IMG/VR virus record: IMGVR_UViG_3300046002_005185
Location: 1 to 36,303 of that record
Length of the DNA: 36,303 bases
Strand: one strand, 5' to 3'
From: a virus
A program made the position numbers and the translations under genes. The notes below the pieces were generated by a model. The model saw only the letters and a program-made list of their open reading frames with translations, did no database searches and was not told where the DNA came from. Shown in pieces: positions 17,140 through 36,303 of the stretch (position 1 is its first letter; every line of letters starts with the position of its first letter).

Positions 17140-17904
17140 TTATTTTTTTTTTCTAATTATTGGAACACTAACACCTCTTTTTTGAACAACGATAGATGCC
17201 ATTTCATTTGCGTATATTATTGACTCCTCAATATTTTTTGTTTCTAAATATTTTACGGTAAATGATGCGGTAAAAGTATCACCAGCACCACTCACATCAA
17301 TGGTTTCACGTGGATCAGGTGATGGATATATATTATCCATATATTTTGCACCTTTTGAACCTAACGTTACAATTAACTTATTTGGATAAAGTTTCTTAAC
17401 ATCATCACTAAAATTACGATACTCATGTTCATTTAATTTAATAAAATTAAAATTAGATACGAGGTCAGGTGAGATTTGTTTTTTTGTATCCATAACAATA
17501 AAACGAGAATGATAAGCAATCTCTAATAGTAATTTTTCATTTAAAAATCCTTTATTATAATCACTCACAATAATTGCATCCGAATCTTTTATCTCATCGA
17601 TGACACTATCAGTTAATTCCAAGGGTGTAATTGTCTCCTCACCCTCATCAACCCTAATAAACATGTGGTTAGATTTATCGTCCACATATCTTGTTTTCTT
17701 AATTGGTTGAAATTGATGTATATGTTTTATTATAATATCATAGTTTAACGATTTCAAATTTTCAATTACATTCCCACCCATTCCAAAATTTCTCTCCACG
17801 TATAATGGATTAAAAACGGGGACAGGAGCTTCAGGACTTAATCTTTTAGTTTCACCATATACGAATATATCCGTACATATCTCACCTATTACAGTTATTT
17901 TCAT
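17140..17904 (-). CDS. Heptose kinase of the HldE/RfaE N-domain type (PfkB family)
   Basis: This is a 254-residue PfkB-family sugar kinase. It has RLSPEAPVPVF (residues 21-31), a hallmark of HldE/RfaE heptose-7-phosphate kinases, then GMGGNV (41-46), KKTRYVDDKSNHMFIRVDEGE-like substrate region (69-89), SDYNKGFL (114-121) and the catalytic DVSGAGDTF (203-211, Asp209). It would phosphorylate D-glycero-D-manno-heptose 7-phosphate at C1. The nucleotidyltransferase domain fused in many bacterial HldE proteins is absent, and the protein is shorter than the usual kinase domain. ATG begins at 17904. It is transcribed away from clpP across an 87-base divergent region and is followed by the HldD-like gene. 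Confidence 0.8.
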   Translation of the reverse strand: MKITVIGEICTDIFVYGETKRLSPEAPVPVFNPLYVERNFGMGGNVIENLKSLNYDIIIKHIHQFQPIKKTRYVDDKSNHMFIRVDEGEETITPLELTDSVIDEIKDSDAIIVSDYNKGFLNEKLLLEIAYHSRFIVMDTKKQISPDLVSNFNFIKLNEHEYRNFSDDVKKLYPNKLIVTLGSKGAKYMDNIYPSPDPRETIDVSGAGDTFTASFTVKYLETKNIEESIIYANEMASIVVQKRGVSVPIIRKKK

Positions 17905-21392: not shown

Positions 21393-21686
21393 ATGAAAAA
21401 GTTAATCGAATTAATAAAAACATATAAACTACAGATACTGATTTTTTTAACAGTCATATTCTTTTTTCGCTCTTGTAGTAATTCAAGTAAAGTGACTAAA
21501 TTAGAAAAAATTGTAAAACAACAGGTTACCATTAATGATAGTCTTAAAATCACACATAAAAACGAAAAAATAGCAATTCACGGTTTTTATGATAATTGGA
21601 TTACACAAAAAGATAGGGGACCACAGTTAATGGAACTACATTTCATTGTTAAAGAAAAACTAAAAAAAGAACAAGAATCTAAATGA
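21393..21686 (+). CDS. Small membrane-anchored protein, 97 aa
   Basis: One N-terminal membrane segment (residues 12-25, LQILIFLTVIFFFR) is followed by SCSNSSK and a short coiled coil (SSKVTKLEKIVKQQVTINDS). No family is recognised. The gene starts 12 bases after the sigma stop and ends in an ATGA overlap with the four-helix membrane protein gene, so the two are coupled and may form a complex. TATTTATA (21372-21379) in the last codons of the sigma gene lies 13 bases before its ATG and could be another late-type box. Confidence 0.5.
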   Translation: MKKLIELIKTYKLQILIFLTVIFFFRSCSNSSKVTKLEKIVKQQVTINDSLKITHKNEKIAIHGFYDNWITQKDRGPQLMELHFIVKEKLKKEQESK

Positions 21687-22636
21687 AACATTGGTTAAAC
21701 CAAAATTTTAAAACATTAATTATTGCTGCATTTTTGATTCCAATCATTACTGTGGCAATTGTTTCTATTTCACACGTTACAAAATGGTATGGTATATCTA
21801 ATCCTGTAAGTTGGGCTGTTTATTTGTCAATTGGAATTGAGATTGCCGCATTATCAGCATTGGCAGCCATTTCCGCAAACATGGGTAAGAAAGTTTATTT
21901 TCCATTTGCGGTTGTGACATTAATTCAATTTATTGGTAACATATTTTTCGCATATACATATATCGACATCAACGGACAATCATTTAAAGATTGGGTTGAT
22001 TTGGTATCCCCATTAACAGAATTAATGGGAGTTGACCCCACAGATATGATAGGTAATAAAAGATTTTTGGCATTTTTTGCTGGAGGTATGTTACCAATCA
22101 TTTCATTATCTTTTCTACATATGTTAGTTAAATTTACCGAAGAAGATAGATTAAAAGAGAATGGATTAATTCAAAATAAAGAACCTATATCTAATCCAGA
22201 AGAACTAAAAGATTTTGTTGATGAGACAACAAGAATACGTTTAAGTGAAAATGATTTAAAGAAACTTGAAGAAGTGTTATTAAATCCACCCCCACCAAAT
22301 GATGAATTAAAGAAGGCGGCGGAAGAATATAAAAGACGTGGAGAGTTATTGGCGGAGATAATGAAGAATGATGAAGAATTGGGTTTATATAACGAACCAT
22401 TTGATAATCCATTAATTAAAGTAGAAGAAATTCATCAAATAAATGAAGATAGTGGAAAAAATTCATCAAACAAGGAAGAATCTGAAGTTATAGTGGAAAA
22501 TAAAACACTAACCGCTAAATTAGGGGAACTTAAAAAAAACGGGTATAAGGTCAGTCAACTTGAAGAAGAAGATATAACACCTGAAACTACAATTGAAACT
22601 ACGTTACCTGAAAAGGAAGACGAAAAAAAAAAATAA
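21683..22636 (+). CDS. Four-helix membrane protein with acidic cytoplasmic tail
   Basis: The 317-residue zero-frame product has four membrane segments at about residues 11-33, 42-64, 72-93 and 127-150, with conserved-looking patches (SIGIEIAALSALAAISANMG, FFAGGMLPIISLSFLHML). A long charged tail (160-317) is rich in Glu and Lys and ends at KKK. The stop codon comes directly after an A11 run (22623-22633). The -1 frame stays open for a further 71 codons beyond that stop without its own start codon, so a longer frameshifted form is likely. The family is unknown to me; holin or membrane-complex roles are possible. It is coupled to the upstream gene by ATGA. Confidence 0.55.
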   Translation: MKHWLNQNFKTLIIAAFLIPIITVAIVSISHVTKWYGISNPVSWAVYLSIGIEIAALSALAAISANMGKKVYFPFAVVTLIQFIGNIFFAYTYIDINGQSFKDWVDLVSPLTELMGVDPTDMIGNKRFLAFFAGGMLPIISLSFLHMLVKFTEEDRLKENGLIQNKEPISNPEELKDFVDETTRIRLSENDLKKLEEVLLNPPPPNDELKKAAEEYKRRGELLAEIMKNDEELGLYNEPFDNPLIKVEEIHQINEDSGKNSSNKEESEVIVENKTLTAKLGELKKNGYKVSQLEEEDITPETTIETTLPEKEDEKKK

Positions 22637-22848
22637 AAAGGTCAACATCCAAGAACCGCAAAAAAGAAATCTCAGAATTTCCAGAGATTTTTAATCTCAA
22701 CCCTACTTTACAAAGTCAAGAAGAAGAATTATATTGGGAAAAGGACGATATTAATCCAAATCAAATAATATATGATTTGGAAAATAATAAAACCATAATC
22801 CCAACTTCCGATGAAGAATTAATTGGACCATCAACGGATGATAATTAG
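22612..22848 (+). other. -1 frame continuation of the four-helix membrane protein after A11
   Basis: Reading in the -1 frame from the A11 run gives KKKIKRSTSKNRKKEISEF and goes on to NPTLQSQEEELYWEKDD and GPSTDDN, ending at TAG (22846-22848). The frame opens after a TGA at 22609 and has no ATG, GTG or early TTG, yet its composition (acidic, coding-like, no low-complexity DNA) looks like protein. A -1 ribosomal slip or an extra A added by polymerase slippage on the run would fuse it to the upstream protein, giving about 388 residues. A sequencing error in the homopolymer would give the same picture. Confidence 0.6.
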
Positions 22849-22869: not shown

Positions 22870-23487
22870 ATGTTAGTAATAAATGATATTGAAACCTTAG
22901 ATAAGGACAAATTAAATATTGTTAAAAGGAAATCCAAGAAAACACAAATTTTTCTTTACGACACTCAGAGAAGAGTTGATGATTTTGTTAATAAAATAAA
23001 ACATAGAAAAAATGGTACATACGATGATGTACCACATTTTATAATTTCAAAATTGGGTTTGGTGTATCAGTTATTTGATACCGATTACAGTTCAAACACT
23101 TTTAATAACCCCAATAACGATAAGAAACAGATTAAAATTGCCATCGAGAATTTGGGGTGGTTAAATAAAAATACAATCACTGGTGTCCTTAATAATTGGA
23201 TTGATGACCCATATAGGTCCGAACCTTATGTTCGTAATTGGAGAAATTACTATTTTTGGGATAGATATGGAGAAGACCAATTAAAATCATTATCTGAATT
23301 GTGTACCTACCTCACGGAAAAACACAATATATACAAACAAGTCGTACCGTCCCAAGGATATATGGAAAAGGTATCTAATTTTAAGGGAATTGTTTGTAAA
23401 TCCAATTTTTCAAGTATTTATACAGATATAAACCCGTCCTTTAATTTTAAGGTATTTTTCAATGATGCAAAAGAAAATGAAAACTGA
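22870..23487 (+). CDS. N-acetylmuramoyl-L-alanine amidase-like protein
   Basis: The 205-residue protein has the outline of an Amidase_2/AmpD-type fold: VPHFIISKLGLVYQLFD (residues 54-70, His56 as first zinc ligand), IKIAIENLGWL (88-98), SLSELCTYL (140-148), and FKGIVCKSNF then TDINPSFNF (171-193). In active amidases the second ligand is a His in the GH motif; here the position reads Cys176-Lys-Ser, and Asp186 matches the third. It could be a peptidoglycan hydrolase using His, Cys and Asp, or a structural relative that has lost activity. It overlaps the next gene by 26 bases and sits next to virion-assembly-like genes, so a virion-bound role is possible. Confidence 0.5.
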   Translation: MLVINDIETLDKDKLNIVKRKSKKTQIFLYDTQRRVDDFVNKIKHRKNGTYDDVPHFIISKLGLVYQLFDTDYSSNTFNNPNNDKKQIKIAIENLGWLNKNTITGVLNNWIDDPYRSEPYVRNWRNYYFWDRYGEDQLKSLSELCTYLTEKHNIYKQVVPSQGYMEKVSNFKGIVCKSNFSSIYTDINPSFNFKVFFNDAKENEN

Positions 23488-32566: not shown

Positions 32567-35500
32567 ATGGCCTTACAAAGAATAAATTGGACACAGATTG
32601 ATAGTGAGAACGTCCCTTCGGGGTCGATTATTGATTTAGGTTCATCCTCCAACCCTCTTCATGCGGTATATGCCGAAAATTTATACATTTCCGGTGTAAG
32701 TGTATCTTCATTAATTACTTATGGTACAAGTGGAACTGGTGGAAGTGGTTCTAACGGAACGTCAGGTTCATCAGGTTCTAGTGGTGTGGGTTCTTCAGGA
32801 ACGGCCGGTTCTTCAGGAACATCAGGACAAGCGGGTACTTCAGGAACTTCGGGAACTTCAGGTGAGGCGGGAACGTCAGGTTCTTCAGGTTCTAGTGGTG
32901 TTGGTTCTTCAGGTTCTTCGGGAACTTCAGGTGAGGCGGGAACGTCAGGTTCATCAGGTTCAAGTGGTGTTGGAACAAGTGGAACTTCAGGAAGTAGTGG
33001 TACATCACCATTAGGGTTTTCATCAGGAACTTCGGGAACTTCAGGTGAGGCGGGAACGTCAGGTTCTTCAGGTTCTTCGGGGTTAGCCGGAACTTCAGGC
33101 TCTTCGGGAACTTCAGGTGAGGCGGGAACGTCAGGTTCATCAGGATCTAGTGGTGTGGGTACTAGTGGAACTTCGGGTTCAAGTGGTACAGGTTCATCAT
33201 TATCAATTACACAATCAGGAGGGTCAACATATACTGCGGTTTCAGGAATAACATTTAGTGGTGCAACAATCGTTGACCAAGGAAATGGTAGTATTACTGT
33301 TAATATTATTGGAGGTGGAACTTCAGGTACAGGTGGTACAGGTTCATCGGGAACTTCAGGAATTGATGGTTACGAAGGACATTTAGCAATTTGGAAATAT
33401 AGTGGAAACACAAACACATCTCTTGACCCTGGTACAGGATATTTTAATTTAGATTCGGCAGCTTGGGGAACATCAACAACAAGTATCACATTAGATAATT
33501 TTGCTTATTCACCAAATACAAATTTTTCAGCTTACTTAGACGGATTAACTATAGGTACCATTTTAAAATTGGTAAAAGTAGGTGACGCATCAACATTTAA
33601 GTTATTAAAAATTGATTTAGTATCACCACTTGATAGTGGATTTGAGAATTATACTGTTAGTCAATTATCATCAGGTGGAACAGACCCGAATGATAATGAC
33701 CAATTTTTAATTATACCATTAGGTATACCAGGTTTAACGGGTACTGCCGGTACTTCGGGTTCATCAGGTTCTAGTGGTTCATCGGGTTCTAGTGGTTCTT
33801 CAGGAACGGCTGGAACTTCAGGAACTGCCGGAACATCAGGTTCTGACGGTACTTCGGGAACTAGTGGTTCTTCAGGAACAGCTGGTTCTAGTGGTTCTTC
33901 AGGTTCATCAGGAAGTACAGGTACTTCGGGAACTAGTGGTTCTGACGGTACAAGTGGCACTTCAGGGGATTCAATTTTTACATTAACGGGTTCTAATTGG
34001 TATACTAATGAAAACGTTATAATTGACGGTAAATTAACTGTAAATGAATTGATAGTATCATCTTCAATTACAAATATGACCGTACAATATTCTAGTGGGT
34101 CAACTAAATTTGGAGACACATCGGATGATACTCATACATTTACAGGGTCTGTTAACATATCAGGTTCAATAGTTGCAACTGGCACGTCATTAGTTTCAGG
34201 TTCATCACAAGTTATACTTTCAGGAGTTACAGGATTTTCAGATTTTAGTAGTTCAATTTCAACATCATTAGCGGGATTAACAACAACATTAAATGATAGT
34301 AATATTTGGCAACAAACCGGTAGTTACTATTCAGCTAATCAAAATATTCAAATTACAGGTAGTGCTGGTTCATTAATGAAATCACCTGATGGAGCGACTG
34401 ACGAAAAATATGCATTGGCAATTTCACAATCAATTCATGCTAGTAATATTAATGTTGGTATACCAACTTCAAATGATTGGGGTTCGAATTTAAATGGTTC
34501 TTATTTTAATAATTTTAATAAAAACACAGACGTTTCTGAAATATTGAGATTTGTTGCGGGTTTATTATCATCTTCAGCACCTGACGCAGCACCTAATACA
34601 AAAACATATAGTACTGCAACTAGAAATATTGTTAATACAACAGCGGGTAGTGTATCAACAACAGTACCCGGTAGTGTTCCACAAAGTTCTACTAACACAA
34701 CAATTACTTATTTAAATGGTAAAGGATTTGCTAACACAGGACAACCATTATTTAGTGGAATTACTATCAATACAAACGCATCTTACGGACATACATTTAC
34801 AAGTGTGTCAGCTGGGTCTACCAACGTATCATCTTCAGTTGATGCACAATTATTTGGTTTAGGTCAATTAAGTAGTGGTACACCAACAAATTTTAGAGTA
34901 TCGGGTTCATTTACATTTAAATTTAAAGATAGTAGTTTAAAAACGGACACCGCAACATCAAGTTCAAATCATTTAATAACACAAACAGGTGCTGGTACAA
35001 CAAGTGGTGTTACGTTAGCAAAAATAACAACAGCAAATCCTGCGGTTATTCCAGCAGCTTATCAAGATGGTAAATTTGTTTCAGTATTTTCACCTACAAT
35101 ATATAATGGTGGTTTAAGTGGAATAAGTGGTAGTGGTTATTATAACATAACATCATCTATTTCAATATCAAGTGGATCTGCAACAACATATACAACCCCT
35201 GTTACAAGTGATATTGAAGTATTCTATGCTCCTCTTTCTACTATTGCAACAAACATACCGGCACAAACACCAACATTTAGTGGTGTAAGTGTTAATGCAA
35301 TATCAGCCGTTTCTCGTTCATTGAGTGGAGCGCCTTTCTTAACAAGTGCAACATATAATATTTCAGGTTCTGTTACAGGATTGTTTAATCCATTATATTA
35401 TGCAGGCACTGGTATTGCAACAATAGGTGTTAGTGGAACAGGTTTAGTTGCAACATCTGGAACAAATACAGTATCAACATTGGGTGGTACAATACAAACA

Positions 35501-36303
35501 TCAAATGCGGTTTATGATTCAACAGGTGTAACTGTAAGAAGTACATCTACAGTTCCTTATGAAACAGATATTGTTAAAGTAAATGGACTTTATACATTTA
35601 CAGCACCGGCATCATCAAACGTAGTTTCGGCTTCGGGTTCGACAACACCAACAACATTTACATTAACAGTTAACGGTTTAAATAAAGCTGGTACAACAAG
35701 TACAAATACGTCAACAGTATCATATCATACTGCGGGAAATTTTAGTCAACTAAGTGCGAGTGGTAGTTTGGCCTATTATGGTAGAGTACAAGGAACAGAT
35801 TCAGGAACAAACTCGGGAGCGTCAAACTTAGAACCATTTACTGGTGAAAGTAATAGAATACAATTAAGTGATAATATATTATCATTCACAGGAACAGCTT
35901 GGGATACGGCATTTGGTTTATATAATTTAGGCGAAAAAGATTTACAAGTTAAACCTGGTTTCTTAGTTAAACCTGGCGGAGCTTACAAGTATTGGTTAGA
36001 AAATCCAAGTGATACAAGTGATTACAAATATTATGTTAGAAAAGTTACAACCAACGCAGGTGTAAAGGGAACAATGACTTTAAACATGGGATCTACCCTT
36101 GTGAATTGGAATTCAACAACAAGTAATTCTGTTTCATGTTTAATTTTATTTGAATCAACAAAGAGTGGTTTATATACACCACCAAGATTTTTTGACCCAT
36201 CAAACGCTTTAACAAACTTAGGTACGATTACTGCAAATACTGACGGAACAAATCCATTTGGTTCAAGTATATATGTAAATCGTTGTAACACAAGTAGTGT
36301 CTC
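32567..36303 (+). CDS. Giant collagen-like tail fibre, 3' partial
   Basis: ATG at 32567 opens a frame with no stop to the window edge, at least 1245 residues. Residues 1-52 are a conserved-looking attachment head (ALQRINWTQIDSENVPSGS, AVYAENLYISGVS). Residues 53-210 and about 391-468 are collagen-like GTSGSSG/GEAG/GVG tracts. Between them is a beta module (GHLAIWKYSG, LDNFAYSPNTNFSAYLDG). After the second tract come strands typical of phage fibres (HTFTGSVNISGSI, GSSQVILSGVTGFSDFSSSI) and long Thr/Ser/Gly beta repeats. This is a receptor-binding side or tail fibre by architecture and by its place next to other virion genes across the circular map. The C-terminal tip lies beyond the window. 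Confidence 0.85.
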   Translation, partial: MALQRINWTQIDSENVPSGSIIDLGSSSNPLHAVYAENLYISGVSVSSLITYGTSGTGGSGSNGTSGSSGSSGVGSSGTAGSSGTSGQAGTSGTSGTSGEAGTSGSSGSSGVGSSGSSGTSGEAGTSGSSGSSGVGTSGTSGSSGTSPLGFSSGTSGTSGEAGTSGSSGSSGLAGTSGSSGTSGEAGTSGSSGSSGVGTSGTSGSSGTGSSLSITQSGGSTYTAVSGITFSGATIVDQGNGSITVNIIGGGTSGTGGTGSSGTSGIDGYEGHLAIWKYSGNTNTSLDPGTGYFNLDSAAWGTSTTSITLDNFAYSPNTNFSAYLDGLTIGTILKLVKVGDASTFKLLKIDLVSPLDSGFENYTVSQLSSGGTDPNDNDQFLIIPLGIPGLTGTAGTSGSSGSSGSSGSSGSSGTAGTSGTAGTSGSDGTSGTSGSSGTAGSSGSSGSSGSTGTSGTSGSDGTSGTSGDSIFTLTGSNWYTNENVIIDGKLTVNELIVSSSITNMTVQYSSGSTKFGDTSDDTHTFTGSVNISGSIVATGTSLVSGSSQVILSGVTGFSDFSSSISTSLAGLTTTLNDSNIWQQTGSYYSANQNIQITGSAGSLMKSPDGATDEKYALAISQSIHASNINVGIPTSNDWGSNLNGSYFNNFNKNTDVSEILRFVAGLLSSSAPDAAPNTKTYSTATRNIVNTTAGSVSTTVPGSVPQSSTNTTITYLNGKGFANTGQPLFSGITINTNASYGHTFTSVSAGSTNVSSSVDAQLFGLGQLSSGTPTNFRVSGSFTFKFKDSSLKTDTATSSSNHLITQTGAGTTSGVTLAKITTANPAVIPAAYQDGKFVSVFSPTIYNGGLSGISGSGYYNITSSISISSGSATTYTTPVTSDIEVFYAPLSTIATNIPAQTPTFSGVSVNAISAVSRSLSGAPFLTSATYNISGSVTGLFNPLYYAGTGIATIGVSGTGLVATSGTNTVSTLGGTIQTSNAVYDSTGVTVRSTSTVPYETDIVKVNGLYTFTAPASSNVVSASGSTTPTTFTLTVNGLNKAGTTSTNTSTVSYHTAGNFSQLSASGSLAYYGRVQGTDSGTNSGASNLEPFTGESNRIQLSDNILSFTGTAWDTAFGLYNLGEKDLQVKPGFLVKPGGAYKYWLENPSDTSDYKYYVRKVTTNAGVKGTMTLNMGSTLVNWNSTTSNSVSCLILFESTKSGLYTPPRFFDPSNALTNLGTITANTDGTNPFGSSIYVNRCNTSSV
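32723..33196 (+). repeat. First collagen-like tract with four copies of a 36-base unit
   Basis: A 36-base unit beginning TTCGGGAACTTCAGGTGAGG occurs exactly at 32848, 32917, 33031 and 33103. The offsets are 69, 114 and 72 bases, all multiples of three, and each unit encodes SGTSGEAGTSGS. Shorter GGTTCTTCAGG-type repeats fill the rest. Identity at third codon positions points to recent duplication or gene conversion. Confidence 0.85.
33739..33969 (+). repeat. Second collagen-like tract
   Basis: GGTTCTAGTGG, GGTTCTTCAGG and GGAACTAGTGG-type units repeat in frame and encode GSSG, GTSG, GTAG and GSDG. Units are shorter and more mixed than in the first tract, and the 36-base unit is absent. Confidence 0.8.

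Follow-up and report, generated by a model that had tools for sequence, protein, structure and literature searches.

Described slippage and frameshift sites

Productive transcriptional slippage is, to our knowledge, documented in only a handful of bacterial genes. In phages, the tail-assembly chaperone of lambda (G/GT) yields a C-terminally extended minor product by a -1 shift. The locus described here is likewise a phage gene with a predicted extended product reached by a -1 shift, whereas in lambda the ribosome shifts on a short heptamer within a tail gene, and the site does not combine an A10 run with an upstream hairpin.

In Citrobacter rodentium, tssM1 encodes an inner-membrane protein and has an A11 run directly before the 0-frame stop; RNAs with 10-15 A's were measured, and a short and a long form, the latter at ~20-25%, are both needed (PMC4256274). 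The phage site resembles tssM1, where the polymerase adds A's, in being a membrane protein gene with A11 followed by a stop. It differs in that tssM1 is a bacterial secretion gene near whose run the authors saw no mRNA structure, and for which we found no description of an overlap with the following gene (PMC4256274). For the transposase of a Roseiflexus insertion sequence (Penno et al.), slippage of the RNA polymerase is stimulated by a stem-loop that the nascent RNA forms immediately 5' of the run, and the phage site has a stem-loop in the same position. In contrast, the Roseiflexus site is T5C5 and undergoes a one-base deletion, whereas the phage runs are pure A9-A11 and need the gain of one A (or the loss of two) (PMC5009743). 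In Shigella spa13/spa32, slippage produces a C-terminal extension whose end overlaps the beginning of the following gene, with an effect on how that gene is expressed. The predicted phage extension also ends at or near the start of the next gene, but spa13 and spa32 are secretion-system genes, and the review mentions no conserved hairpin for them (PMC5009743). The tau and gamma forms of dnaX arise by polymerase slippage in Thermus and by a ribosomal shift in E. coli; dnaX has two isoforms, as predicted for the phage gene, and shares with it a species-dependent polarity, A9-A10 runs and nearby off-frame stops (PMC5009743, PMC3711429), although dnaX encodes an unrelated protein, a DNA polymerase subunit. 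Our search of a library of open-access papers found no description of the phage cassette, nor of any DNA phage in which transcriptional slippage is programmed; the class of mechanism is already known, while the phage cassette appears to be undescribed.

The locus and the conservation of the A-run

The window is a stretch of 36,303 nucleotides, IMG/VR record IMGVR_UViG_3300046002_005185. The following features, all on the plus strand, surround the site:

21393..21686, plus strand: upstream small gene, 97 aa, with a charged stretch and one segment predicted to lie in the membrane
21683..22636, plus strand: 0-frame ORF, 317 aa, the short isoform, with a conserved four-helix membrane domain (about residues 1-160) followed by an acidic tail
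22602..22622, plus strand: RNA hairpin CGUUACCU-GAAA-AGGAAGACG, -4.7 kcal/mol, its 3' arm abutting the A-run
22623..22633, plus strand: A11, the putative slippage run
22634..22636, plus strand: 0-frame TAA stop, directly 3' of A11
22633..22848, plus strand: -1 frame tail of 71 residues, which would form the C-terminal part of the long isoform, with TAG at 22846-22848
22870..23487, plus strand: downstream gene of the Amidase_2/PGRP fold, lacking both zinc-ligand histidines

The 3' end of the 317-aa ORF reads GAC GAA AAA AAA AAA TAA, and the -1 frame tail contains YWEKDDINPNQIIYDLENNKTIIP. The original prediction had located the A11 run, the TAA behind it and a -1 frame open for 71 residues to the TAG, and all of these coordinates are right. 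It had also described the tail frame as devoid of a usable start codon; the sole ATG, GTG or TTG is indeed a TTG 143 nt past the run. At its 5' end, the membrane gene overlaps the TGA of the 97-aa gene as ATGA in the window, an arrangement shared by 20 of the 56 relatives counted, window included. A role of the membrane gene as a holin was considered and dropped: the membrane domain had no Pfam or PHROG support and no PDB sequence match, and a domain model of moderate confidence gave no fold match. Within the charged tail, residues 177-217 (22211-22333) match the Pfam TacA1 antitoxin family (PF08681) above the cut-off, with an E-value of 2.7e-6; the same match is present in L013 and absent in L022.

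Phage relatives of the four-helix protein, gathered by scans of IMG/VR with the membrane gene, the tail and alignments of them, numbered 86 once redundancy was removed, and many lie on contigs of 100-335 kb. No relative of the membrane domain occurred in GTDB genomes and plasmids, and INPHARED contained a single one (LR756500, 33% identical), which lacks the run within its ORF and lies beside a different gene. The membrane domain is well conserved, with a mean column identity of 80% across 45 relatives. A sister clade of 40 short relatives has neither tail nor site; three of its members (L191, L239 and L275) have an A9 run elsewhere in the gene, near codon 152 in the latter two, which is a different site.

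The layout of the window, with a 0-frame stop at or just past an A9-A11 run and a -1 frame open across it, was found in 42 of the 86 relatives, hereafter called split. All 42 retain the run (A10 in 32, A11 in eight and A9 in two), and the 0-frame stop lies 0-12 nt past it. A group of large freshwater phages has thus kept the A9-A11 run, and the conserved run with a conserved -1 tail that the original prediction had named as support is present in these relatives. Their +1 frame closes after ~7-115 nt, whereas the -1 frame reaches or adjoins the start of the downstream gene in all 41 that could be scored, L078 being truncated ahead of the next gene. For L019 an opposite (+1) shift was entertained and rejected, since a systematic frame count gave -1. 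Together, the run and the open -1 frame are far above chance, because A runs of at least 10 number 44 over the 59.7 kb of the membrane gene family but only two over the 253.6 kb of the remaining ORFs from the same loci. The window itself has a second in-gene A10 (17143-17152, minus strand) at the end of a sugar-kinase-like gene (17140-17904), before the ATG of the next gene; it has no upstream hairpin and is probably due to chance.

The tails themselves are conserved. Many share the motif YWE.DD.NPNQ.IYDLENN, and most have the basic end RNV.N..RR..R. The pooled pairwise pN/pS is 0.46 for the tail and 0.13 for the membrane domain, where the pairs overlap and an alignment made from proteins favours low ratios. 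These motifs speak against reading the tail as an independent small gene with a start codon to itself, or as a mere spacer before the amidase-fold gene, as its overlap with the start of that gene in most relatives might suggest. Moreover, the tail frame lacks a conserved start codon, with several relatives having none at all, and in four relatives the tail belongs to the reading frame of the membrane protein. We therefore regard a separate gene or spacer as highly improbable.

Poly-A tracts are prone to both replication and sequencing slips, and the run could in principle be a tract for phase variation at the DNA level, or the window contig could contain an indel or a sequencing error, the latter a possibility that the original prediction had also raised. 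Either is extremely improbable here, because the run length does not vary among 21 assemblies of two lineages, being A10 in 8/8 and 13/13 where 7-15 was allowed, and because the window differs from L011 by a substitution (A11 versus A10-T) with no indel. Close relatives also share run lengths, and the -1 relation is the same in 41/41 split relatives. Since both run and tail are conserved, comparison of the relatives strongly supports programmed frameshifting into the -1 frame. One consequence is that gene finders truncate the membrane protein across the whole group of large phages.

The upstream hairpin and the proposed slippage

The 32 nt before the run were folded in 29 non-redundant split relatives, and in 26 of these the 3' arm of a stem ends 0-3 nt from the first A. 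A few of these stems are weak (L018, L052), and no convincing abutting hairpin was found in L014, L019 and L074. The arms vary between lineages yet pair within each: they are CATCATC/GATGATG in L003, CAATTAACTC/GAGTTAGTTG in L062, CTTTATCTG/CAGATGAAG in L083 and CTTCGTCA/TGACGAAG in L097. Between L003 and L011, the stem has one compensatory change from a C-G to a U-A pair, a formal pair count from few rows.

The mean folding energy peaks exactly at the run, at -5.9 kcal/mol compared to about -2 elsewhere within 120 nt on either side. When 3' arms were swapped among relatives, the mean fell to -3.05 +/- 0.32 as against the observed -5.92, and none of 5000 swaps folded as well. Permutation of synonymous codons within the gene gave a mean z of -1.8 and a combined p of 6e-12, which is indicative in that individual values are floored at 1/201 and the 29 sequences share ancestry. 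The hairpin of the window has a z of -2.4 against dinucleotide shuffles. Other A runs of at least 9 in these loci have no hairpin (n=18, mean -0.8, none below -5). Downstream of the run there was no signal of RNA structure (mean z -0.31, control -0.30), and an Rfam search returned nothing above threshold.

These data bear on which machine slips. A programmed -1 ribosomal frameshift on A AAA AAA/N within the run would make the same two proteins. An in-phase A AAA AAN heptamer is present in every run and the direction is always -1; in reporter cassettes, longer A-runs shift more, with an efficiency of 10% for a run of 7 A's and 63% for one of 11 (PMC3711429). Runs of Lys codons promote slipping of the ribosome too, and polymerase and ribosome could both act. 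On the other hand, no run is shorter than 9 although 7 would do, and the hairpin is immediately upstream, in the path of a translating ribosome, which would melt it. Elsewhere, 99 of the 103 in-phase A_AAA_AAA heptamers are in A7-A8 runs, whereas the slippage site is never below A9. The lack of a stimulatory structure downstream also counts against the ribosome; some known cases of ribosomal frameshifting need no stimulator.

A further argument comes from four relatives (L013, L022, L051 and L060) in which tail and membrane domain share one frame. The original prediction had held that homologues with both parts in one frame would speak against a programmed shift; such homologues exist, but they do not refute it, because each retains one or two A9-A10 runs with reversed polarity. 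In L013, L022 and L051, both off-frames stop 0-9 nt past the first run, so that slippage in either direction would yield the short form; in L060, only one off-frame does so. L022, L051 and L060 each have two A9-A10 runs in the tail and may have several truncation points. The hairpin is weaker or absent in the fused relatives, with means of -1.7 versus -6.3 in the split ones (Mann-Whitney p 1.5e-4, the sequences being non-independent). In a quick tree of the membrane domain, the fused relatives are scattered among the split ones, fused L051 pairing with split L052 with strong support, and the 10 short relatives sampled form one supported group; many inner forks are weak. From this scatter and the persisting runs, the long clade is seen to retain the run regardless of which isoform is the default.

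The original prediction had offered polymerase slippage and a ribosomal slip as two routes to a -1 shift. The programmed shift stands, and the first route is favoured over the second: the runs are always at least 9 long where 7 suffices for a heptamer, the hairpin is directly upstream with none downstream, and the run is retained in relatives whose tail needs no shift. A ribosomal shift is thus unlikely to be the explanation. Two features expected of homopolymer slippage are present, namely a conserved run of at least 9 A's at the frame change and conserved coding sequence in the shifted frame, and so is the feature expected of stem-loop-stimulated slippage, a hairpin that the nascent RNA would form immediately 5' of the run. 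An RNA-DNA hybrid of 9-10 bp that is all rA:dT, with a hairpin just behind it, would have the geometry described for that type of slippage (PMC5009743).

We consider it likely that the A-run and the hairpin in front of it form a programmed transcriptional slippage cassette, which yields two membrane-protein isoforms and probably feeds ribosomes to the next gene. A bacterial-type RNA polymerase would copy 9-11 A's, leaving a hybrid entirely of rA:dT, and the nascent hairpin would form right behind it, pausing the polymerase or pulling on the transcript. The RNA would then realign, and a presumed fraction of the mRNAs would gain one A (or lose two). Faithful mRNAs would give the short membrane protein, and shifted ones the long form with the -1 tail. 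What argues against polymerase slippage is that the change needed is +1 A, while the known hairpin-driven case is a base deletion (PMC5009743); the direction of a hairpin effect is for this reason tentative. A more specific proposal, which we find evenly balanced, is a programmed slippage element of a new kind in double-stranded DNA phages, in which a hairpin abutting the A9-A11 run drives the insertion of an A and sets both the isoform ratio and the expression of the next gene, with a polarity that has flipped repeatedly. With dozens of diverged natural variants of hairpin and run, what stimulates and directs RNA polymerase slippage becomes testable by comparison. The hairpin, the reversal of polarity and the link to the next gene are additions to the original prediction.

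The downstream amidase-fold gene

The protein encoded downstream has an Amidase_2/PGRP fold, assigned by Pfam in 28 of 28 cases at E <= 0.01, with the window's own score just under the cut-off; its best PDB fold match is an amidase (E 1.6e-5). Both zinc-ligand histidines, their positions assigned by motif search and not by structure, are gone in 45/45 scorable members of the clade with tail and run, whereas of the 40 members of the short clade 34 have the first and 35 the second. An annotation as endolysin was dropped on account of the two histidines absent in the window's clade, and only the term amidase fold was kept. From its sequence, the protein may be non-catalytic and peptidoglycan-binding. 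The loss of the histidines probably goes back to a single event inherited by the clade, and a functional link between this loss and the tail and run site is therefore only suggested.

With the downstream start placed by alignment, the -1 frame ends 32-41 nt inside the amidase-fold gene in 36 of the 41 scorable split relatives; the other five, namely the window and L099-L102, fall short of the start by 1-21 nt, and in the window the start lies 21 nt past the tail TAG. Ribosomes translating the long isoform would terminate at the start of the amidase-fold gene or a short way into it, and this arrangement suggests that they probably raise its translation. A single site may thus act as an isoform switch, and it may also provide a link to the next gene. 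Further along the window, a long ORF with collagen-like GTSGSSG repeats occupies 32567-36301 and continues open past the window end.
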